From Acorus gramineus (Eukaryota > Streptophyta > Magnoliopsida > Acorales > Acoraceae): a DNA stretch of 64,000 bases. The translations under genes and the position numbers were made by a program. Under the pieces are notes generated by a model. That model worked only from the letters and a program-made list of their open reading frames with translations. It did not search any database and had not been told where the DNA came from. Positions within the stretch are counted from its first letter, which is position 1, and every line of letters begins with the position of its first letter. The stretch is from positions 1-64,000 of the forward strand of contig CM060849.1 in assembly GCA_030737835.1 (NCBI GenBank), given 5' to 3'. This document shows positions 27,430 to 50,031 of this stretch, one piece after another.

Positions 27430-29955
27430 TAGGTTGGGTTTGGACTAACATTCAAGAAGTTGTGCGCGAAGATCTACCTACATTTCTGGCCTATGCTCAA
27501 AGATGATTTAACTCGAGCACTCAATAATTTTTATAGTAGTGCTCGGTCGCCATTGTCATGGGGATCTACAAACATTGTTTTGATTCCCAAAGTCAAATGT
27601 CCGATGACGATAAAGGATTACCGTCCTATAAGTCTATGTGATACCAAGTATAAAATTTTGTCGAAGTTACTTGTTGGCTAGTTGAAGAAGGTATTACCGA
27701 ATTTAATTGGAGAAGAACAAGGGGCTTTTGTTTCTCATAGACCAATCCATGGGCATTTGTTACTCATACAGGATTATGCACTCGATGCAAATCAGGAAAG
27801 GCTGGAATGCGCTGATGACCTTGAAGATCGATTTGGCAAGCGCATATAATTATGTGGAGTGAGATGCTCTTATCCAAATTCTTCATCTTTTTGGTTTCCT
27901 TGAGAGGTGGTGTCAATGGATATATGCTTGCATCTCACAGGTTCGAATGGCAATCCTTATAAATGGGGCTCCTACTTCTTGGATCAAACTGGGACGATGT
28001 CTTCGTCAGGGAGACCCATTGTCCCTGTACTTATTTACTTTAGAGGCAGAGGTGTTGTCCTCATTGTTGAGAAGGGCTTGTAAAACGGGCAACATTATAG
28101 GTTTTCAAGCAGATTATAGATTAAATGGTCAGCTTATTCCACCGGCTCTTACACATTTGATGTATCCGGATGATTTTATGATAGTGTTGTGTGGTTTCAG
28201 CTAGTCAAATTCCTAAGCCAAAAGAGATTTACCTGCTGTTTTGATTTAGAAAAGAATAAGGAAACTACATGTATCCCCAAATGTTCAAGTGTTTTTTTTT
28301 TTTGCTTGGTATGTTCAAATGTTTGTATGGCAGTTGCTGAGGGACAGACTTCCCAGTAGGGTCTTACTGGATTCTTTTGGCCTGCATCTGGATATATTAT
28401 GCCCGTTATGTTGTAGGCAGTGGAAACACCAGTCCACCTGTTTACTCGATGTCATTTCGCTGTAGAATTTTGGAGGAAAATTTCAGTTCGAATGCTTCCT
28501 CCTCAATCTATTTGGACAGCTGAAAGTTGGGTGGATGTTTTCACATGTTCAAACTAGTTTTTTGCACTTAGTTTTTGGAATATTTGGTTCGTGCATAACA
28601 AGATTGTTTCTAATGATCATCAACCAGGTCCTAATCACATGATAGCCCGCATTCAAGTACAATTTGCAGAATGTACAGGGGCACAGCAAGATCAGGGGAG
28701 ATTGAAGGAGGGCTCCAGCACCCAGAATTAAGTGACTTCTTCTGAATTACACTCATTTGATAGTTTTAAGTGATGATTGGTGTTTTATCATCACAGATAA
28801 GCCTGTCAATCAAACGGATACGGATCGGATAGACATATATCCGTATCCGAACTAGATATCCAACAAAAATATCTCTACCCGATATCCGACGGATATTGAA
28901 AGTAAATATCCGTATCCGATCCAAAAATTCGAATTCGGATACAGATAATTATCCGAAATATCCAAAAATTCAAAATAAATTTGGAATGACTAAAATATCC
29001 AAAGATCCAATATCCAAAAATAAAAATCATATATCTAATATTTGAAATATGTAAAAAATATAATAATTACCTAGTATAAAACATAAAATTATAAGTATAT
29101 ACATACAACATTACATACTTTAAGTAAAAATAAAAAACTCATACTAATTCTAAAAGTATAAATATATAATTAAATAAATAATAATATAATATTATTTTCG
29201 GATACGGATATTTTTCAGATCGGATATGGGCATATCCGTATCTAATCCAAAAAAATTTCGGATACAGATAATTTTTTTGGATACGGATATGGATTTTTCG
29301 GATATCGGATATTTTCTTGATTTTTGGATACGGATCGGATACGGATATTTTTTTGGATTATTGACAGACTTAATCGTAGATGCAAGTGTTCAGATGGGTC
29401 CCGTGAGGCTGGAGCAGGTTCTGTGATGCTACAATTTAATTAGATGCAAATTCTTGGTGCAAGTTTTCATTACCATCCTTGTTGGGATTCACCAGCTTCT
29501 ATGGAACTGGAGGCGGCCATTTATCAAGGCATTAAACATGCTATGCTGTGGGGATTTACAAGGCTATATATTTGCTCGAATGTTATCGATCTATTGAATA
29601 GTAGGGTGCCTAGACATACTCATTTGCAGGATTGCGTGGAACAAATTCGAAAAATGGAATCCACAGTCGACCACTCAGATTTGTAAAATAATCGCGCGAG
29701 GCGGGTACAAGATCCTGAAGTTTTGGCTCGTTTTGCCCGATCGAGTAAATCGAATGGGATTAGTGGATTACTAGGTATCTTTTGGACTCTACTGTTAAAT
29801 GTATTATGATTTATGAGTCCTTATGTACATATTTTGGATCTGATATTATGTTTTGTACAGGAGAATAATACCTCCAGTTCTGTATTTTGAAATGTTTTTT
29901 CTTTTAAGTAATACAGATGCCTTCTATAGGCATTTCATCAAAAAAAAAAAAAAAA
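27430..29955 (+). mobile_element. LINE (L1-type) 3' half, interrupted by a hAT-like MITE
   Basis: A degraded ORF2 starts inside the reverse transcriptase: HFWPMLKDDLTRALNNFYSS, NIVLIPKVKCPMTIKDYRPI and SLCDTKYKILSKLL (27460-27681). Next come RQGDPLSLYLFTLEAEVLSS and LTHLMYPDDFMIVL (27947-28204), where the usual catalytic YADD reads YPDD. A zf-RVT remnant (CPLCCRQWKHQSTC) is near 28390-28430. An RVT_3 RNase H domain resumes after the MITE at 28799-29373 (MELEAAIYQGIKHAMLWGF). Frames are broken at several points. An A-tail at 29939-29955 ends the element and is where the MULE inserted. Confidence 0.85.
28799..29373. mobile_element. hAT-like MITE inside the LINE
   Basis: Ends AAGCCTGTCAAT and (reverse complement of right) TTAAGTCTGTCAAT are inverted. 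They are flanked by 8-bp near-repeats TCACAGAT (28791-28798) and TCGTAGAT (29374-29381). The interior is rich in forward and inverted GGATACGGAT/ATCCGTATCC units at both ends and AT-rich in the middle. Reading across the site restores LINE coding (ITD then ASVQMGPVR), supporting a true insertion. An 8-bp duplication and CTGTCAAT ends fit non-autonomous hAT elements. Confidence 0.8.
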
Positions 29956-30043
29956 GGTAATTAGCACTTTTAACCCCAAGAAAATAAATATTTACAAAAA
30001 TAGCACTGTCTCTCGAATATTTGCAAAAACTACCCCATTGAAG
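29956..30043 (+). repeat. MULE left terminal inverted repeat
   Basis: About 88 bases aligning with the reverse complement of 36079-36166, including TTAGCACTTTTAACC, AAGAAAAT, AATATTT and CAAAAATAGC blocks. Confidence 0.9.
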
Positions 30044-30049
30044 TTTACA

Positions 30050-30149
30050 CTGGAGATAATCTGTCTCCAGTATTACCCTGACAACATCAAAAAACAACAA
30101 ATAACCTGTTATGCACAGAAGAGAGACAGCATATATATATGTCGTCTCC
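30050..30149. promoter_or_regulatory. Left palindromic modules of the MULE
   Basis: Module L1 (30050-30070) is an inverted repeat, CTGGAGA with a 7-base centre and TCTCCAG. Module L2 (30123-30149) reads GAGACAGCATATATAT and then GTCGTCTCC. A weaker third unit (GCAGCATATATAAGCCCC) follows at 30156. They share the GAGAC...GTCTCC frame of the right-end modules. A role as transposase-binding or promoter elements is inferred, not shown. Confidence 0.7.
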
Positions 30150-30722
30150 AAGTCGCAGCATATATAAGCCCCGTCCCCGCTGTCAAGCTCTAAATTCACC
30201 TCCCTATTGTCCCTCTTTCACCCACCCACTCGCTGCCAACCCTGAAAAATCATCAAAAACAACTCTGAATCCAAAGGTAAACATCAAAACCCTAAATGTT
30301 CTTGAATTTTATTATTTATTTATCAATTGTTTTGATTTTATTGATTAAATTTGGGTTTTTTTAATGTTGAATTTATTTATTATTGGAATATTGATTGTAT
30401 GATGTTTTGTTAAGTTAAATGTTAATTTTTTTAGGGTTTTTGGTTATTTTAAAATTTTCTATTTGTCAAAATAAACTTTTAAATCTTAAAAAAAATTTGA
30501 AAAATTTGATTGTCATATAAAAACTTTTTAAAAAATTCAATGGCCTTAGGAAAAAATTCAATGGCCTCTTAGTAAACATTTTAAAAAAATCAAAGGCTAT
30601 TTAGGAAATATACTTTGTATGTGTTGCATGAATGTTATAGTGTTTAATATGTATGTGTTGGATGGATTTTATTATTATGAATTTAGAAATATATTTACTA
30701 AGTTGAATAATTTATGGTTTAG

Positions 30723-31216
30723 ATGGTAAAGAAATCCGATGTCCCGTTAATGTACTCTTTTAACGGGAGGATTGTTCAACGTGAAGATACTTCATTTTAT
30801 GAAGGTGGTACCAGGAAAACCACCATCATAAATAAGAGGATCTCTTATGTCGATTTACTCCAAATGATGTACCATTTGACGGGAACCGATCCAAGTCGTT
30901 ACAAATTGTCCATGAGTGCTGTGCATCCCACTCACGACGGAAAGAGTTTGGGTGCCCCTCTCGAAGATGATATGGGTGTGAAAGTGATGATAATGTTGTA
31001 CCCAAAGCACGTGCATGTCATTCAATTATGGTTAGAGAAGGAAGAGATCATACAAAGAGGTCGTGGTGCGATGAATTACAATGCAGAAGATTCATATCCC
31101 TCCATTGTTCGTGATCCATACCAACCTTCATCGTCGTCGTTCGTTCCGTGTACCCAAGAAGATTTGATTGATGCAACACCAACCAATGCCCATGGGAGTG
31201 TCAATATACCACACTT
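30723..31216 (+). CDS. MULE transposase, N-terminal exon
   Basis: Reads MVKKSDVPLMYSFNGRIV, then YEGGTRKTTIINKRISYVD and LLQMMYHLTGTDPSRYKL, resembling the N-terminal domain before the DNA-binding region in plant MURA proteins. The exon ends at a donor (TT then GTAAGT at 31217). Joining to an acceptor at 31292 keeps the frame (PHL then SPFHDMGW). The start at 30723 is the first ATG of the frame, after an AT-rich leader with no other long ORF. Confidence 0.75.
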
Positions 31217-31292
31217 GTAAGTATTGTGTATTTATAGAATGTTTTTGGTGGGTGTATTCATATGTGTAAGTATAGTGTGTTCTCATTTATAG

Positions 31293-32056
31293 GTCTCCAT
31301 TTCATGACATGGGTTGGAATGATATTCGTGAGGGAATTGAAGTAAACAATGAAGAAGAAGATCAAGAAGGAGGAGAAGAAGAAGAGGAAGTGAGAAGATA
31401 CTGAAGAAGAGGATCGTGAAGATCACTGGGTTGAAGGACCTGATACTGAGGAGGACCATGATGTGAGGAGAACTGCCATCCATGAATATAGTGTTCCTCA
31501 AATGTTTCCTACACGTGAGCTTATGGAGCAGGCGGTGGCAGAAAATGTCCATCCATGCATTTATGAAATCGGATCTTCTTCGTGTAATGAACTTGAGGTT
31601 GGTCAGCTTTTCGCGAATAAGAAGTCACTCATTAATGCTGTCCGAACCTGGAGCATAAAGAAATGTGTACAGTGTCATGTGGTGAAATCAAATGCAGAAA
31701 AATACGCCGTTAAGTGCATAAATGATGAATGTAATTGGAGATTATATGCGAGGAGGGTCGGTGGTTCAGAAATGTTCAAGATTTCCACTCTGAGAGTTCC
31801 TCATACATGCTTGGATCCTCTACTCAGTTCAAATCACAGACAATTTAGTTCTGATTATATCTCACAGCTGATTATGCCAACGATTCGTCATAATTTGAGA
31901 ATCAGTCCTACTGAGATAATGGACAGGATACGTGCTGATCATCACTACACAATTTCATATTCAAAGGCACACCGTGCCAAATGGAAGGCTATGGAGAGGA
32001 TATTTGAAATTGGGAGGAGTCATATGCTGAGTTGCCTCTATATGTTGATGCCCTGA
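31293..32056 (+). CDS. MULE transposase, MuDR DNA-binding region
   Basis: After an acidic Glu-rich linker (frame break near 31393), the translation ELEVGQLFANKKSLINAVRT, the CINDECNWRLYARRV segment and ISTLRVPHTCL match the MuDR/MURA N-terminal domain (C-x-C/W ... H-x-C zinc-binding-like pattern). It continues into the helical stretch with RISPTEIMDRI and a frame break near 32008, after which WEESYAELPLYVDALRR continues in the next frame. Function: recognition of terminal repeats. Confidence 0.8.
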
Positions 32057-33435
32057 GGAGGTCTAATCCAGGAACAAATGTGATCTTCGAAGGCCCTGTC
32101 ATACAAGAGAATAACATGGGCAGACCGATCCGACAGTTTGAACGTGTTTATTGGGCATTCGGACCAGCCTTAGAGGCTTTCAAACATTGTCGTCCATTGG
32201 TTTGCATCGATGGAACACACCTGTATGGAAAATATAAAGGAAATCTCCTGATAGCCACTGCTTGCGATGCAGAAAATGGTTTGCTTCCGATAGCCTTTGC
32301 TATAGTTGAATCTGAGAACAGAAGCAGTTGGACCTTCTTCCTTTGGAACTTGTTCTTTTCTGTTGGTTGTATAAACAATGTGTGTGTCATATCTGATCGG
32401 CATTTGGGCATCATAGCAGGCATGAAAGCTATTGAGGAAGCAAGCAATGTGACATGGCACCATCGTTTCTGTATGAGACACATGATAGACAACTTAAAAA
32501 ACAATGTTAAATCAAAGGAGTTGAATGACCAGGTTTGGAGGGCTGCCACCTTGAAATGTCCAAATCAATTTGCTGACGAAATGCGAAAGATTCTTAGTGC
32601 CTCTCCGCAAGCTCGCACATGGCTTGATCAAGTCCCTCCACAAACATGGGCCCTTTGTTATGACGATGGTCGTCGTCATGGCACGATGACCACCAATAGA
32701 GCAGAAAGCATGAACTCGGTCTTGAAAGGTGTAAGAGGATTGCCAGTCACTGCCATATTACAACAGACATTCATTGGAGAGTCAGAGTATTTTTATACGA
32801 GGCGTGAGTCGGGCGAGAGCATGTCAGGTGAACATGTGCCATCTATGCAGCAGCGTTTGGAGAGAACTGCACATGATGCAAGGGCGATGCTAGTAAGAAG
32901 GCTTGATAGGTCAGAATTCAATGTCCAAGACAAGAATGCGGTTATGTACACTGTCTTCTTGTATTCTGACTATGCAGATTGTCAATGTCATGTTCCGAAG
33001 TTGTTTCACTATCCATGTGCACATGTCATAGCGGCTTGCGGGTATGCTCGTATTAGTCCTGGGAGATATGTGTCACATTGGCTTTCCTCAGAGTCATATA
33101 GACACACTTATGAACCCCGATTCCACTCCGTTGATGATAAAAGTCGTTGGCCGATTCCTACGGAAAACGATCCTATCTTCATCCCACCGAATATTAGGAG
33201 ACAAGCGGGGCGCCCTGTATCAACTCGCCGACGTATGCATATGGACTCCAGGGATCCAAGTCTGAGATATACATGTTCAATATGTCATGAGAAAGGCCAC
33301 AGAAAAAATAAATGTCCACGTAGAAATACAAATGCTGGTATAAATGTTAAATATGATTATGATATTACGATGAATGTTAAATTGTTTGAGTATATATTAA
33401 TTTGTGTTCAAATTACAGGTGATGGACATACGTGA
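32032..33435 (+). CDS. MULE transposase catalytic core, SWIM and CCHC fingers
   Basis: The ORF has 467 codons. Residues 58-62 (CIDGT) carry the first catalytic Asp (D60), ISDRHLG the second (D122) and TTNRAESMNSVLKG the catalytic Glu (E205), the DDE set of MULE transposases. The alpha-helical segment WHHRFCMRHMIDN lies between. A SWIM zinc finger follows (C317-x-C319 ... C329-x-H331) and then a CCHC knuckle CSICHEKGHRKNKC (C415, C418, H423, C428). A splice donor after NA (33338) and acceptor at 33418 are plausible, but both spliced and unspliced forms end at the TGA at 33433-33435. It would cut and insert the element. This part is intact; the upstream parts carry frame breaks. Confidence 0.92.
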   Translation: MPLYVDALRRSNPGTNVIFEGPVIQENNMGRPIRQFERVYWAFGPALEAFKHCRPLVCIDGTHLYGKYKGNLLIATACDAENGLLPIAFAIVESENRSSWTFFLWNLFFSVGCINNVCVISDRHLGIIAGMKAIEEASNVTWHHRFCMRHMIDNLKNNVKSKELNDQVWRAATLKCPNQFADEMRKILSASPQARTWLDQVPPQTWALCYDDGRRHGTMTTNRAESMNSVLKGVRGLPVTAILQQTFIGESEYFYTRRESGESMSGEHVPSMQQRLERTAHDARAMLVRRLDRSEFNVQDKNAVMYTVFLYSDYADCQCHVPKLFHYPCAHVIAACGYARISPGRYVSHWLSSESYRHTYEPRFHSVDDKSRWPIPTENDPIFIPPNIRRQAGRPVSTRRRMHMDSRDPSLRYTCSICHEKGHRKNKCPRRNTNAGINVKYDYDITMNVKLFEYILICVQITGDGHT

Positions 33436-35651
33436 GTGGCATGGACCCGTCGTGGATGATTTGCTGTATTTTCAGGGATCTCATAGATCTCATCATGGAT
33501 TTCAGGGAAAGGTATATCCATTAGAATAATTTTATCTCTTCTGTTATTATTGTGGTCAAAATTATTTTATTTAACAAACTGATTAAATTTGACACAGACC
33601 GATACCATGAAGTTCACGATCCACATGGTGGCATTGCGTCACTGGGTCATGGATCCACGCATCGAACCATACGTGAGGGCATCCGGATTCTACTATTTGA
33701 CACAGATGGGATATACAAGATCAGATCATCGACTATTACAAGCACTCGTGGAGAGATGGAGACCAGAAACCAACACATTTCATCTGCGACATGGCGAGAT
33801 GACTGTCACACTTCAGGATGTTGCTGTTCTGACAGGGCTTCCCATTGATGGCAAGCCCGTGACCGGTATCACAGACTGCGATGATTGGGGACACGTTTGT
33901 GAGGATCTGTTAGGTGTTGGCCCCCTGCAAAGAAGATCAAGGGTGGTAGAATTTATCTCTCGTGGCTTAAAGAAACTTTCAGCATTGTACCAGATATTGA
34001 TTTGGACGACGACATCCTCCAGCAGTATGCACGTGCATATATCTTATTTGTTCTTGGATCCACCATCTTCGCTGATGGCACAGGAAATAAGATACATGCA
34101 TGTTATCTTTATCTACTTAGAGATTTGGATGATGCTGGCCGATATTCCTGGGGTGCAGCTGCGTTGGCCCACTGTATAGAGCGCTGTACAAGGGTAGTGT
34201 GCTTGGAGAGAGGACGTCCGCAGGATCTCATGGATTTTATTCGCTGCTACAGGTAATATGAAAACTCCAAGTTTCCTTTGTAAAACTTGTTCTTTTTTAT
34301 CAGTGTTACTTGTATTTTTTTATTTGTTCCCACAGATATGGTCGTGGGAGAGATTACACGTGGGACGACCGGACTTACATGACTCAGATTTTGTGCTTGG
34401 AGATAGACCTTTGGGGGCAAGGTAATACATATTTTTCATCTTCTATTATCAATTCATGGATGATCAGATTTCACTAAATTCCTCACTATCAGGTGGAAGG
34501 TGACTCAGAGGTTTGATGAAAATTCACGAGTTCTGATATACTATAGGGCACAACTAGACTACCAGCTTGAGTCACAGGTGATTCAAACTTTATTATTATA
34601 TCGCACACACAATATATACTCATTAAGATTGTGATACTAATTATAATTTTGATTTTTTGTAGGTTATCTGGCAGCCTTATGTTGGGACATATGCTGTACT
34701 ACCATATGCTTGTAGGAATCATATGGAGTTGTGGTTGGCTAGGGTCCCACTCATTTGCTTTGATATCGTGGAGATGCACGTGCCCGATCGAGTCACACGT
34801 CAATTTGGGGTGCATCAAGACATACCATCCACTGTAGAGGTCATCGACCGGGTGAACAGACGAGGTAGACAGGATACCAATTGGATGGTATATCACCAAA
34901 CTTTTATCGAACGTTGGGACCAACGCTTGGATCACATCCACCAGTTGCATCATACCCGAAGTTCGAGGAGATATATGGAGTGGTATTGGGAGAGAACAGT
35001 CAGACATATCACACCTCCACCACCCCCACACCACCCTCCAGGCTATGTCGCACAACATTCGGTAATTTCTTAAACATCTGTTACATTTTCATAAAGTGAT
35101 AAATGATTTTAAAACCACTTATTATAATGAAACTTCTGATAAACAGGGGGAGTTACACAGAATATTAGTGAGGTGTTTGCAAGGGGGTTGGTGTTGTACC
35201 CCAATTATGATGGCACGTGATTATGCTGAGGCATGATGGGGGAAAGGGAACAGCCATCGAGCCATCGAGTACCTCCAGTGCAGCTACAGATGATGATGAT
35301 TACTCCAGAGATGTCATAGATGACAGTGCATTTGGGCCAGGAGCTGATACTGAATTCACAATTGATGAGTTCTTTGGTGATGTACGACTGGAGCCAGAAT
35401 TGGATGAGCAGCCACCACAACCAGCTCCAGTTTTAGATCAAGCTCCAGAGATGACACTCTAGACATATGTTCGTGGACCACGCAGGATTTGGTGCACTTC
35501 TACTACTGTCAGTCGGAGATCGGGTGAATCATTTATCACTCCGGCTCAATCAGCTGCGCCATCTTCTACAGCCACAGACGTACCCTCTTCATCAGCACCT
35601 CCTGCTCCAAGGAAAGCAAAAAAGAAAGGGTTTATGAAGTTTTTTGGATGA
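33422..35651 (+). CDS. Plant mobile domain (PMD, MAIN-like) gene of the MULE
   Basis: Starts ATG at 33422 (MDIREWHGPVVDDLLYFQGS), overlapping the transposase stop in another frame. Inferred exons: 33422-33511, 33598-34252, 34336-34421, 34493-34577, 34663-35061 and a last exon from about 35147, all with GT-AG borders. Motifs: LRHWVMDPRIEPYVRASGFY, ERWRPETNTFHLRHGEMTVT, LQDVAVLTGLPIDGKPV, RAYILFVLGSTIFADGTGNK, then in another frame LLQIWSWERLHVGRP and PLGARWKV, the classic PMD signature. The tail is acidic and ends KKKGFMKFFG. Frame breaks are inferred near 33970 and 34190. PMD proteins (MAIN/MAIL1) act in transposon silencing and genome stability; PMDs carried by MULEs and Gypsy elements are known. 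The role here is unproven. Confidence 0.85.
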
Positions 35652-35889
35652 CTGTATATATGGGACTTAAGATATGTTTAGATATATGAATTTTCATGCA
35701 CAAACAGTAATGAAGTGATTGTAATTTATAGAACTTGTGTTTTATTTCATTTAAGTTGTTTTATTTCATTCAAGCATGATTTTCATACATTTTCATATAT
35801 GTTCAAGCAGGATTATACACTATATTTAAGGCAGGACTATGTTTGAACAAAAACAAAAAGAAAAAAAAAATTTCTAAGGCAATTGAACT

Positions 35890-36026
35890 GGAGACAGCAT
35901 ATATATATGCCGTCTCCTATACAAAACCGAATAACACGGGAGACGGCATATATATGCCGTCTCCCCTTGAAAATTCCTCAGAGAGGAAAATGCAAAGGAG
36001 ACGGTATATATATATGTGCCGTCTCC
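35890..36026. promoter_or_regulatory. Right palindromic modules of the MULE
   Basis: Three modules: R1 35890-35917 (GGAGACAGCATATAT ... GCCGTCTCC), R2 35938-35965, a perfect 28-bp palindrome with half-site GGGAGACGGCATAT, and R3 35997-36026 (GGAGACGGTATATAT ... GTGCCGTCTCC). Spacing is about 30-50 bases. They mirror the left-end modules, so they look functionally tied to element ends. Cruciform or hairpin RNA potential is evident. Confidence 0.85.
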
Positions 36027-36078
36027 AGTATAAACATTAAAAAAAAATGGCCAGCGCTGACGTGGTAGCGCTGACCGG

Positions 36079-36166
36079 GTCAATGGGGCTAGTTTTTATA
36101 AATATTCAAAGGACATGGCTATTTTTGCAAATATTCATTTTCTTAGGGTTAAAAGTGCTAATTACC
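36079..36166 (-). repeat. MULE right terminal inverted repeat
   Basis: Reverse complement matches 29956-30043. Ends AAAAGTGCTAATTACC, followed by the A-rich target duplication. Confidence 0.9.
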
Positions 36167-36175
36167 CAAAAAAAA

Positions 36176-37609
36176 TATAAGAAGAAGAAGAAGTTGTGCT
36201 TGAGTTGCAACATTACCTAAAAGTTACTAGCTTTTCTCCTGCTCGGCTTTGTCAAAGCAGATGAGGACATTCCTTTCCGTGTGAAGGGCCTGTGTTCAAG
36301 CTTTCACGGCCGTGAAAAAAAGGGAGAAAAAAAGCCCTTTGGTCTTGTATTATGGGCCTTAGCCCATGGTTTGTGTGTGGGTCCCTACTAACCCAGTGGT
36401 TTGTACTAGTATGCTAGGGTGGGATCTTGTAACCCCTCATAGGCCTTTTTACCCAAAAAGAGGCAAAAAAAAAAAAAAAGTTACTACATTTTGTGATAGA
36501 GGTTACTCCTATGTTGCAAATGAACCACTACTTGTTTACAACCACCTAAGAAGGAAGGTTTGAAAAGTCTGTGGCTCCGGATATCTGGAAGCTTTTACAT
36601 TAGTTAGCATGATCATTGCTTGCATTGATGATATTTTTTTTTTTTTCTTTCGTTTTTTTTTTATTTTCCCTTTTTTGGTAAGGACCCTTTACTAGGCTAA
36701 TTATATTTCATCAACGGAAGATACAAAATGAGGGTCATATAGATTTTGTACATAATATAAACAGTCATGAATGGAAAGGTAAAACCGGGTTAATAACCTA
36801 CGGTATGATCGCCTAAGCCCCCATGTGAAGGGGTAAGGCCAATATCCGGTCATTACCTACTCAGATTGATCATGCTTCAGCACAAATTGGAGATTTTCAT
36901 GTTTGGATGGTGGACCAGTGTGTTTGGTAGGCTAGACATTTGGGAGGGCTTTGGGCCTAGGTAGTGACAGGTAGTCCAGAATTGGGGTGGGTCAATTGGG
37001 TCCATAGGACAAGGTCAGGGTGGACCTGGTAGTAACTACCGTTAGATGGGGTGTTTAATCTCTCCGTTATACACTTACACTATTATATGTCAAACAATTT
37101 TTTGTACACTAACTATTTTTTAATACTCTTATTACAGAGACTGCCAAGCCCTTCCTCCCCAAATCTATGCTGGTGCAGCATAGATGCTTCCACATCTACT
37201 ACACCAGTGCTATGGATGGGATGACAGTTAGAGACTACCACAAAAGGTGTTGTTCTACGGATGTTAACCAGCTGTGCATCTTCCATAATGTTAATTACAC
37301 ATGTATTACAATGGACCATCCATCAACATGCATTTAAACCAACACACATACCTTATTAATACTATAGCATTCATCATAATATATGTTTAACAATATACAT
37401 AGAAAATGTAGCAATGTACAATCAAATATATGTTTAACAATGTACATAGAAAACATAACAACATACACATAAAAAAGTTAGCTTACCATAAAGTTCTCTC
37501 TCACAACACATTCAAAATCATCTATTATCTCATGTCTTACCTCCCATAAAACAAGCATCATATGCACAAAATCATAGAAAAAAAAACTAAATATTGAGGA
37601 TGCTTATAA
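36176..37609. other. Unassigned DNA
   Basis: No gene is firmly supported. The minus ORF at 37113-37319 (VNIRRTTPFVVVSNCHPI ... HQHRFGEEGLGSL) is clean but unrecognised. 36280-36480 contains repeated GGGCCTT/AAGGCCC-type inverted motifs, and 37330-37470 has AATATATGTTTAACAATRTA repeats. Confidence 0.35.
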
Positions 37610-42560: not shown

Positions 42561-45098
42561 ATGCTCAAACCGCTGTGGATTTGGGTATTTTTAAAATGGA
42601 AAAGAAGAATGTTAGGGTAAAACAACATTTTTTGGGAATGATGTCATCAATTTAACGCTATAAAAAAAGATGTTATGGTGGGAGAAATGTTTGGAAGAGA
42701 AGGTTTTTGTTGCCTGTGAAAGAAAAAGAAGATTTGGTAGAAGAGTGGATATTTTCATCATTTTAAATGGAGATACTGATGGAAAACATTCAAAAGGACC
42801 CAAAAATAATGTACAAGACAATTTAAAAACGTAAGAAAACGGGCTCGGATCAGTTGTTTCCACCGGAAATAGAAAACATAGAAACCCAATCAATTATATT
42901 TCACCACGTAGGATCTCAAACGGGGCACCAAACAATGTCGAAATAGAGATGTAAAAAGTGCAATGAAGTTCCTGCATAATAAAAAAATTACAAATGAGCC
43001 CTCAAATGAATCAAGCATGATAAAACAATCATAAATGAGAAGCATTAGGTCCTGCCATAACCATTGATTCTATTTGGAGAAACAACCAGCAAAAAAAGAA
43101 AGAAGTAAGAAAGGCAAAGATTTTTTTGTTTATAATGTTATTTTTTCAAGACATTTTCTAAAGTTATTAGTAACGTCAAGATTTTGTAGTCTTTACTGGA
43201 TATATGCATGAAAGTGAAAAGTATAATGTTATGTACAATCTTTTTTTCAATTTCAATTCTAGTCTACATGTACTTTGAATATTTTAAAAATAGTATATAT
43301 ATCTCATCTAATGAGGTACATGCTTTTATAAAAAATGAAGCATATACTTCAACGAATTGCATATAGATGCATTTATAGAAAATGCAAAAAATTTATATCA
43401 AAGCATATACCTCATTAATGTAAATATATGCTTCGATGATTTTCTATTGACGCATATGAGACTGAAATTTGGGTTGAAAAAAAAATTGTGTGTAACAACA
43501 CTCGGGTAAAAAATGTTAATTTTTTTTGTTGTCATTTTCATATGTTTGTTATGAAATGACTGACTTAGATTTATTAATTAAATTTGATGATCATTTTATA
43601 ATTTAATTTGATTTATAATCACAACTACATGGAAGTTGTTTGAAATTCATATACATTTTTTATTCAATCTTTTCTGAAAAATTTGATTTTTTATTTAATA
43701 AATGGTGTGGTTGGTGGATGTGCATCTCCAAATAATAAAAATTGAAAAATGATATATATGCAATCCTATACGCAATCTACACTAATTTTTTTTTAAATAT
43801 ACATTTGTTTATTGCCGTACATACTATTGTATGAATTGATATATATATTGAGATACATTAGTGAACTTTTTTTATTGAAAGAATAAAAAAATTACAACCA
43901 TATACACTGAGATAGAGAGTGCAGTATATTCACTAAGATACACCAGTTATTTTTTTATTTGAAAAATTAAAAAAATTGCAACCCCATTATCACACTGCAT
44001 GAGGAGGCTTAAAAATTAGATTGAGTGTATTAATGCTCATAAAATTATTTTTTATTTAATAGGTTTTTTTCAATTCATTCAGTCGGTGATTATATTTTTG
44101 TGTTTGTTTTTTTTTTTTCAAATCAGATGGAGTATTCTATCATGCTTGATTCAATTGAGGGTCTCGTTTGTGATGGTTTTATTATGCAAGGAAATTAATA
44201 AGTTTCAGGCACTAGAAATTAATAAGGGGGTTGGCGGGAGAACTTGTAATTAATTTTTTCAAAATAATTTGACATACGCACCCACTGATTTATAAGAAAT
44301 GATGATAATTGATTTGACATGTGAAATCGCTTATATCAATGGAATAAAATTTGACTAAAATATTAATTTATTCTCACTCATGTAGACATAGTTATACATA
44401 CATTCTTTGCAACCAAGCAGATATTTTGTCTTATTCATCTCTATTTCATCATATCCCACATCAACTCCACTACTCAAAAGAGACTGATAAATTGTAAATG
44501 CCCACTTACCGAAAAAGACAAGAAATTACATAATTCATTTAATGAAACATACACTTTGTTAGCAAAATAGCAGGTGGAACTGCATCTAAGGACTGCATGC
44601 AACAACACCCTTGAGCCATTAACTTGTAGAAAAGAGAATCATCTTTGAAATTTTGAAATTGAATGAAGCCTCATCAACAAAGTCCGGAAGTTTTGATGCC
44701 CTGATTTATGCATGTACAACAAAAGAAAACTCTGGCAGGGGAATTCATGTCAAAACTACAACCTGGAAACACCATGGAGGATTAACCACCTTTGCATTTC
44801 CTCCCAAATTCATATAGGCCTGAAGGTTCACTCCAATTCCAAGGAAATATAGCAAAGATGCTGAGAAATTCATTAATCTTCCAACAGTATATGTACAAGG
44901 TATAATTCGCAGTAAACCAAGAGCTTCCATCTCTAGACAATTCATATATTCCTAAGCCAAGATCTAAAAAAACCGCAACTATAAGAAGAATAATCATATA
45001 GCCTTCAATCCTATTCTGATAATTAAAATCATTATTTCATGACATTGTCATCCGGTATCTTTGCAGAACGTCATCGGAGAAAGTGTGACTCTTCCCAT
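42561..45098. other. AT-rich DNA and probable 3' flank of the RING-CH gene
   Basis: No gene firmly supported. 43300-43460 holds repeated GCATATACnTCATTAATG-like motifs. Two overlapping minus ORFs at 44745-44997 encode hydrophobic segments (MIILLIVAVFLDLGLGIYEL) just downstream of the RING-CH stop codon; they may lie in its 3' UTR and no homolog was recognised. Confidence 0.4.
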
Positions 45099-48300: not shown

Positions 48301-50031
48301 TGGGCGCATATAATTTTTAAATAGATATAAATGCAGTTCCATTGCAGGGGATAGAGCCCCATTGAGAATTGGAAGATATCTCCAAACTTCCAGATAATTT
48401 GTTTTATATATTTCATGTTTCTCCCATTGTTTCATAATTTCACAATCTTTAGTTCTCCAGAAATTCCCATGCATAACTGACACACCATAAATACTAATCT
48501 CAAGCAAAGGCAATAAGAACACCAATGAATCAAACTCACAAGACATAAGGTCAAGGAACAGAATAATCTCCACAGTGTGACAAGCTCAAAAATTGTTTTT
48601 TGGGGTAACTATGCAGGGCCTTTTTTCCTAATTAATTATTATTAAATAAATATTTATCAAACTAATCAAACAAAAAAAAATTTACAAAAGTACTCATCTG
48701 ACTAGTCCACCCATGCCACGATGGCATATTGTTTAATGTTTATGTGTAAAATGCCAATGACAATGATGTTTTTGGGGTCAGATAAAAAATACGTCAATGG
48801 CATTACCATTTAACACTAGGTATTTTTTTCTATACGTCATTGTCATTGGTGTAATAACTATGTAAATCTAAAGACGCCAATCCAGTAGCACTAGTTTAAG
48901 GTTGCCTGTTTTTACGATATTCTCAATGACATCTTATCAGAAATATTGGTCAAACGCCTTATGTTATTCTCAACAACATCTTATCAGAACTATTGGTAAA
49001 ATGCCATTGAAGATGGCATATTTATTTAATAAAAAAAGTGTCAAAAAAATTATCGCCGTTGACGTTTTTAATGCCAACGTGACATGGGTTGACCGATCAT
49101 ATGACTACTTTGATAAATATTGTTACAAAAATCATAATTAATTAGGGGAAAAGGCCACTAAGTGGAGAATAGCTAACAAATTTAAAACCCAATTTATGCT
49201 AACTTCTCATCAATAATTGAGCTTCAGTATGGTGCATTCTCATTCCCTGTTATTTCCAAGTGCCACAGCTCATATCAAAACACAATATCATCCACCACAG
49301 TACACACCAAATACATTATCAAACAGCCGATTTCAAGAAAAACCATCAAGAACATGCATCACAAATTAAACCCAATCTTTGCTCCCTCAAAAACGTGCCC
49401 TCTCTTCAATGCCAATTATCAGCCATTGTAATCTCAAAAACCCTCATAAATTCTCTAATCACCTAGACAACAAAACTATGTTATCCAATCTGATCCAAAA
49501 ACAGTCACCACCAAACATAACAAGCATTGAATCAAATATAACACCACACACACAAAGAAAATCCAAATTAAAAAAAAAAAGAAGGAAACATTCATCTCAA
49601 ACAAACAAAAGAAGAATCCAATCCAAAAGGAGGGATAATAAACCTCACCTGTTCCCCTTGATCTTGAACCATGCCTCGGCGCAGTGACCGTGCGCGATCC
49701 CCAAATCATTCTTGCAACCACACCCCAACTTCATCAGCAAATCCAAGCCGTCCGTCTTCCTCTCCCAGCTCAGGTGACAGATCCTGCAAACCATCTCCTC
49801 TCCCTCCCTTAAATCCTCACCGCCACCGCCATCGCCGTCGATCACATCGATGACAACGCAATCACCACCGCCGCCGCCGTCCCGATCCTTCGGCGCCGCC
49901 TTCTTCACCTCCGCCGTCCTCGCCAGCTCCGTCTCCAGAGAAGAGACGACGATCACGCACTCCGTAGGCGGAGGGGGGATCCCGTCCGCGGAGTCGCTGC
50001 GCGGGACCTCATTTGACATTCTCTCGCTCAT
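45099..50031 (-). CDS. RING-CH membrane-associated E3 ligase-like gene (two exons)
   Basis: Exons are 49649-50031 and 45099-45324 on the minus strand. Residues about 81-140 form a RINGv finger (CRICHL, then GCGCKNDLGIAHGHCAEAWF and YCEIC), the MARCH-type domain that binds E2 enzymes. A single C-terminal transmembrane helix (about 178-198) follows, so the protein probably sits in an internal membrane with the finger in the cytosol. The N-terminal part is acidic, Gly- and Asp-rich. The start at 50031 is followed by a second Met (MSERMSNEV); a TATATATAA stretch lies about 50 bases upstream. The same order (RINGv plus one terminal membrane span) is known in small plant RING/FYVE/PHD-type proteins. 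Substrate unknown. GC content falls from exon 1 to exon 2. Confidence 0.88.
46886..46909 (+). tRNA. tRNA-Arg 5'-half-like fragment (not functional)
   Basis: GACTCCGTGGCCCAATGGAT followed by AAGG matches the acceptor strand and D-arm (A-box) of plant tRNA-Arg genes. The sequence then diverges; no anticodon arm, B-box or 3' acceptor strand is present. It may be a partial tRNA or the head of a tRNA-derived SINE. Confidence 0.4.
48605..49163. mobile_element. MITE in RING-CH intron
   Basis: The left arm (GGCCTTTTTTCCTAATTAAT, ATATTTATCAAACTA, CCCATGCCACGATGGCAT) aligns with the reverse complement of the right arm (GGCCTTTTCCCCTAATTAAT, ATATTTATCAAAGTA, CCCATGTCACGTTGGCAT). Arms are about 110 bases; inner direct repeats around ACATCTTATCAGAA (twice) are present. 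Non-coding. Family unknown. Confidence 0.7.
49649..50031 (-). CDS. RING-CH protein, exon 1
   Basis: Encodes MSERMSNEVPRSDSADGI, an acidic Gly-rich linker, and the N-terminal part of the C4HC3 finger (CRICHL, LGCGCKNDLGIAHGHC, WFKIKGN). It ends in phase 2 at the donor CAG-GTGAGG. Confidence 0.9.

Follow-up and report, generated by a model that had tools for sequence, protein, structure and literature searches.

Palindromic modules inside both ends of plant mobile domain-carrying Mutator-like elements of Acorus gramineus: a putative array of dyad binding sites

Introduction

Transposase-recognized sites near both ends of a Mutator-like element (MULE) are exemplified by the MURA binding site of maize MuDR, one conserved site in a long terminal inverted repeat (TIR) without a palindromic array. 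Genes for the plant mobile domain (PMD) are found in transposons and also among host genes with a role in the silencing of transposons. This study concerns the first 64,000 nucleotides of contig CM060849.1 of Acorus gramineus (assembly GCA_030737835.1; hereafter the window), which contain a PMD-carrying MULE with short palindromic modules arrayed just inside its two ends.

Arrays of a comparable kind have been described elsewhere; the published work is cited here, except where a paper is said to lack a word, from excerpts. The subterminal repeats of the CACTA elements En/Spm and Tgm are bound by TNPA, and the 28 repeats of Tgmt* form 14 stem-loops (PMC2613891). The motifs of the VANC proteins are YAGTATTAY for VANC21 and AGTTGTCC or AGTTGTAC for VANC6 (PMC5735166, PMC10398659). 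Subterminal palindromic or tandem arrays are already known, both from CACTA elements (PMC2613891) and from certain MULEs (PMC5225508). Transposon silencing is influenced by host PMD proteins, to which a promoter motif, 'DOWN', has been linked; the authors left the reader of this motif open (PMC7156037). No description of the present motif was found in the excerpted literature on PMD-MULEs (including PMC4583175) or on subterminal or palindromic transposase sites of MULEs, in agreement with the initial annotation of the window, which was made from the sequence alone and knew of no function described for it. A mulberry small-RNA paper that matched by the letters of the motif (PMC5770470) deals, in its excerpt, with an unrelated predicted miRNA.

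Modules in the window element

The 6.2-kb MULE (29955-36167) was delimited by its inverted repeats, its Pfam matches and relatives of the same gene order, and carries transposase and PMD genes on the forward strand. Its TIRs, the left at 29956-30036 on the forward strand and the right at 36086-36166 on the reverse strand, are 81 nt long and 86% complementary to each other. The initial annotation had placed the modules just inside both element ends, which holds, and within the terminal repeats, which does not: they are just internal to the 81-bp TIR.

Each module is a pair of facing half-sites, GGAGACGG. With up to two mismatches, the half-site occurs 10 times in the window against 0.70 expected, a count that none of 100 shuffles reached. 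Eight of these matches are the paired halves of four modules (30122-30149, 35890-35917, 35939-35964 and 35997-36026), so the same half-sites do occur on the left and on the right, as had been noticed at the outset; the other two (54-66 and 49009-49021) are single half-sites with two mismatches each. On the right the modules are 28 bp (35890-35917), 28 bp (35938-35965, a perfect palindrome as annotated, with a 26-bp core at 35939-35964) and 30 bp (35997-36026) long. On the left, module A (30050-30070, CTGGAGATAATCTGTCTCCAG) is indeed a module place, occupied in this copy by a shortened and decayed module. Many other copies have a well-preserved version of it at about +98 from the element end, and a complete 28-bp module stands there in the majority sequence of 48 ends. 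Module B (30122-30149, 28 bp) differs by three changes from the consensus half-sites, and the site first listed as a weaker one at 30156 is a half-decayed module C spanning 30152-30178, with the core TATATAAG. The transposase gene presumably has its TATA box in TATATAAG, which this last left module thus overlaps and which is followed by a CT-rich stretch; the two are presumed from their sequence to form the core promoter. Under a strict scan, in which one mismatch was allowed per 8-base half, three modules of the window element remained (35890-35917, 35939-35964 and 35997-36026), and each of them belongs to the right array. The interval 31000-35600 contained no module, and neither did any of 20 base-shuffled sequences of the element.

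A further short sequence stands right after module A. CAGTATTAC (30068-30076) matches the VANC21 motif YAGTATTAY and is also present in the end consensus. It was considered as a repeated VANC target and set aside, as it stands once beside module A, and the related element L075 lacks it, reading CAGTGTTCC at that place.

Association with element ends across the genome

The search covered 398.6 Mb in 137 contigs. The full pattern GGAGACGGN{8,14}CCGTCTCC has 708 sites against none for its reversed control, and the exact half-site GGAGACGGCATAT has 392 places against one for the reversed pattern; a chance origin of the motif was rejected by these controls together with the window shuffles. The first 30 half-sites listed come from contig C1 and belong to 15 ends; in every case the family TIR is 147-278 bp away. 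In this sample, placement at random positions, unrelated to element ends, was not seen.

Among the first 50 full modules listed, again all on C1, 47 form nine cluster pairs (grouped by eye) 3.6-6.3 kb apart, and three are single. The TIR adjoins all three single modules and one end of eight of the nine pairs; L075 is one such pair read at both ends, and has a TIR at each. For the ninth pair (22488847-22494840), the assignment comes from its spacing. Where full-palindrome places were taken, a TIR was found beside three of four.

Organization of the arrays

Altogether 113 modules were found in 48 ends, with at least one module in 46 of them; ends with identical first 200 bases were counted once, and L004, in which no TIR was found, was left out of these counts. 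The spacing between half-site starts is 15 bp in 97 modules, 13 bp in 10, 17 bp in 5 and 16 bp in 1. Module length is accordingly mostly 28 bp, otherwise 26 or 30 bp, and 24 and 26 bp in the related copy L078; it varies by 2 bp, that is, by one TA step. There is a preferred place: 26 of the 113 modules begin at +95 to +99 from the element end. A module with the inner sequence ATTATATATAAT stands at about +98 in many ends, a second one near +168, and many ends carry further modules, often at a spacing of 29 bp. With 0 to 7 modules per end and right arrays that differ between subfamilies, these are fast-changing motif arrays in non-coding DNA. Inside both ends the motif recurs in either orientation, with nine modules in L075 (6408 bp, target duplication TTATATATA/TTATATCTA; four modules on the left and five on the right), five in L058 and five in L076.

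Symmetry of the modules

Although only the outer 8 + 8 bases were fixed by the search pattern, 40 of the 50 listed modules are perfect palindromes. Position 9 is equal on both arms in 46 modules (A in 25, C in 8, T in 7 and G in 6) and unequal in four, compared with a mean of 17.8 and a maximum of 30 symmetric modules in 10,000 shuffles. The 48 ends yield 62 distinct modules, in which identical double changes number 25 against 6.8 in shuffles, and none of 2000 shuffles reached 25. The copies are related, so that these double changes are not independent events. Removal of the +98 module leaves 18 against 5.9; taken alone, that module has no excess of symmetry over shuffles (7 against 7.2), because its copies share one ancestral change. 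Two clear adjacent symmetric double changes, AGAGACGG...CCGTCTCT and GAAGACGG...CCGTCTTC, are seen in L058. Symmetry is thus preserved across copies, and a loss of pairing was not seen.

Conservation and a short derivative

The window element and L075 are 87% identical over a 5.6-kb body (30123 to 35657). Beyond it, the right subterminal DNA (window 35658-36084 against L075 6086-6586, compared on both strands) gives only matches that cover a module at E-values better than 0.001, and module-free matches start at E 0.007. Modules are also retained in L058, a 759-bp element too short to hold the transposase or PMD gene, which has a perfect 9-bp target duplication, TTTTTATTA, and keeps five modules; from base 168 on it matches the 3' part of the window element (93% to L002). 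With its five modules and its target duplication, L058 indicates that the modules are carried along by a short unit showing the mark of an insertion.

A second family

L066, with a transposase 62% identical, belongs to a second family, whose TIR is about 70% identical to that of L075. L076, of the same family, carries a PMD gene (PF10536, E 5e-36). The array of this family is made of another palindrome, ATCACGTCTCC-AGT-GGAGACGTGAT in the clearest copies, repeated at a pitch of about 30 bp upstream of the transposase gene (6193-6400 in L066; about 1500-1590 in L072 and L073). The pattern CACGTCTCCN{1,8}GGAGACGTG has 27 sites in the genome against 0 for the control, and the right end of L076 has three 27-bp modules, for example GGAGACGTGATCATGGATCACGTCTCC. 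Both families share GGAGACG, and in both the facing half-sites span 27-28 bp from edge to edge. Their inner sequences are different but palindromic in each family, with a less AT-rich centre in the second. Three further relatives were covered on the 5' side: L078 and L080 carry GGAGACGG palindromes there, and L079 has none.

A transposase in another diverged stretch, L065 3714-5177 (C2:19446213-19447676), is the sole stop-free full-length exon match among the second-family-like transposases, being the query itself. Neither an inverted repeat nor an array was found around it, and for this reason L065 may be an immobile or host-used copy.

Interpretation of the arrays

A common half-site, presence at both ends, a preferred place, conservation past the loss of alignable flanks and retention in L058 together argue for a cis-acting binding array. 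We consider it probable, as far as sequence comparison can tell, that the modules are subterminal arrays of putative dyad binding sites for a protein encoded by these PMD-carrying MULEs. An element protein, either through the N-terminal DNA-binding domain of the transposase or as the PMD protein, would recognize the half-site GGAGACG(G/T), and two molecules would bind face to face across 24-30 bp, so that the array would gather many protein molecules at each end. Since the left array reaches the presumed core promoter of the transposase, where one module overlaps the TATA-like sequence, occupancy would help to unite the ends for transposition and would also set the expression or silencing of the element itself. 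That the reader is specifically the PMD protein, acting as a sequence-specific anti-silencing or activating factor and as an equivalent of VANC whose evolution is coupled to that of the array, is a tentative proposal and rather doubtful. It may deserve early testing because host PMD proteins affect silencing and have a linked promoter motif whose reader was left open, according to the excerpt of PMC7156037. If it were true, it would point to the ancestral element-side function of MAIN and MAIL1, host PMD proteins with a part in transposon silencing.

Several observations weigh against the arrays being protein binding sites inside element ends. The base at position 9 is free yet symmetric, which is more than protein binding alone requires; such symmetry at free positions would be explicable by pairing or by a template switch through which one arm is rewritten as a copy of its partner. 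Dyad lengths of 24, 26, 28 and 30 bp would be poorly tolerated by a rigid dimer. Two of the 48 ends (L036 and L040) have no detectable module, the 3 kb of the perfect-palindrome place L004 contain no TIR, and only one module of the second-family element L077, on the left, passes the strict scan. Among the five stretches with diverged transposases (L065, L066, L078, L079 and L080), arrays were not found in L065, whose best TIR match is no better than E 0.07, or in L079, which has TIR fragments only. CpG retention in the modules is 0.79-0.84 against 0.49-0.96 outside, not better than at several outside sites, and special protection of the half-site CpG was dropped for want of a clear difference.

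The modules might instead act by their own folding, either as DNA cruciforms or as RNA hairpins that feed small-RNA silencing or end transcripts. Symmetry kept where the base itself is free would be expected of a stem, which could also tolerate length steps of 2 bp, and the right array folds strongly both as RNA (-80 kcal/mol, z -14.0) and as DNA (z -11.5). Strong folding alone is no evidence, however, as any such array must fold. One-sided transitions show no preference for G-U pairs, with 31 kept and 37 broken on the inward strand (12 further changes are transversions, and the counts are mirrored on the other strand); changes that keep a G-U pair therefore do not outlast those that break pairing, which speaks against a selected RNA hairpin, although identical double changes are in excess. 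The left array, moreover, lies upstream of the presumed promoter, and the centre of the second family's palindrome differs and is less AT-rich while the GGAGACG half-site is kept. Action by folding is thus considered unlikely; among the roles first suggested for the modules, protein binding fits the sequence comparisons best, a cruciform is possible, and the hairpin and small-RNA proposals drew no support from the wobble test.

Mutation without much function offers another route to the same symmetry, in which template switching during replication makes one arm a copy of its partner and generates tandem duplicates of modules. This would account for symmetric change at unconstrained positions (the 25 double changes among 62 modules), for the 29-bp tandem spacing and for the varied copy number. 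It leaves unexplained why GGAGACG is retained in two families, why modules favour a place near +98 and occur at both ends, and why they survive where the flanks are unalignable; it is regarded as quite improbable. The auxin response factor element TGTCTC resembles CCGTCTCC, and inverted pairs of GAGAC half-sites stand upstream of the presumed promoter, as they might if a host transcription factor such as an auxin response factor bound them. The consensus is nevertheless CGTCTC rather than TGTCTC; 46 of the 50 listed modules fall in clusters or cluster pairs tied to the family TIR and the other four in an equally spaced cluster pair; and none of the 50 was seen standing alone, host genes not having been mapped. 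Binding by a host factor is accordingly very improbable.

Genes and neighbourhood of the window element

The gene order is that of a Mutator-type transposase followed by a PMD gene on the same strand. The first coding piece of the transposase gene (30723-31220) is an open frame of 165 codons without a Pfam match. The remainder (31394-33435) matches PF10551 (E 5e-14) and PF03108 (E 7e-12) and is interrupted in this copy, with two overlapping frames, 31394-32056 and 32008-33435, that differ in phase. Because of this interruption the window copy is probably inactive. The PMD gene (33583-35073, PF10536) consists of three matching pieces, the first two of which overlap in different frames. The three Pfam matches, together with 9-bp target duplications in L058 (9/9 identical) and L075 (8/9), bear out the MULE label of the annotation. 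The presumed duplications of the window copy (29946-29954 and 36168-36176, 8/9 matching) are indistinguishable from a poly-A tract. Neither CACTA termini nor a 3-bp duplication was found in L058, which ends in GGGTAATTAGC and has a duplication of 9 bp.

Many transposase copies of the family are 94-97% identical, and a number have open frames of about 700 codons (99 of 849 candidates scored); judged by these frames, the family is not all dead. Ratios of nonsynonymous to synonymous change between subfamilies, obtained as simple estimates without a significance test, are 0.25 for the transposase, 0.31 for the first coding piece, and 0.16 and 0.52 for PMD pieces, and both genes look constrained. 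Synonymous divergence between the window copy and L075 is higher in the PMD pieces 33589-33900 and 34663-35070 (0.48 and 0.25) than in the transposase (0.12); subfamilies may have exchanged their right halves, or the short first piece may be misaligned. Comparison with solved structures gave a single chance-level match (E 0.81) for a PMD piece and none for the DNA-binding piece of the transposase.

Immediately left of the element, the open frame 29444-29686 has a weak match to RVT_3 (RNase H-like; E 0.0003, slightly below the curated cut-off). One further, weak TIR match in the window outside the element, 25 bp at 43267-43290 (92%, E 3e-4), has no module nearby and is perhaps a relic end or a chance match.

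Comparison with known systems

The many open transposase frames and the repeated symmetric site offer a concrete target for establishing which sites are bound by PMD proteins of transposons or by plant MULE transposases, and a single genome provides two families in which both arrays and genes have diverged. MULEs with subterminal tandem repeats are known from mosquitoes: Muta1 and Muta5 resemble the present elements in their 8-9-bp target duplications and in repeats near both ends that vary in number and are kept in short derivatives (PMC5225508). According to the excerpt, the mosquito repeats are 12 or 15 bp long and part of a TIR of 145-151 bp, and Muta1 has a 10-bp palindromic terminal motif (PMC5225508), whereas the units described here are 24-30-bp palindromes internal to the TIR in elements with a PMD gene. 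The P element is similar in having 10-bp transposase-binding sites that lie internal to its TIRs and whose distance differs between the two ends (PMC7776569), but these are single sites and the transposase is unrelated.

The VANDAL elements of Arabidopsis, with their VANC proteins, share with the present elements the MULE superfamily, fast-changing tandem motif arrays in non-coding DNA and different motifs in related families (PMC5735166, PMC10398659). Their TIRs are degenerate, in contrast to the clear TIRs found here, where the second gene is a PMD gene by Pfam; the VANC arrays are not termed palindromes in PMC5735166, from which the word is absent. CACTA elements and TNPA show, in the excerpt consulted, the same use of a short palindromic motif in both orientations inside both ends, differing between families of one species (PMC2613891). 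They differ in their CACTA ends, 3-bp duplications and TNPA and TNPD proteins, the Acorus elements being MULEs with 81-bp TIRs, 9-bp duplications, a PMD gene and GGAGACG. Among these descriptions, CACTA is the closest precedent for the layout of the modules, and VANDAL for fast-evolving arrays that a protein of the element reads.

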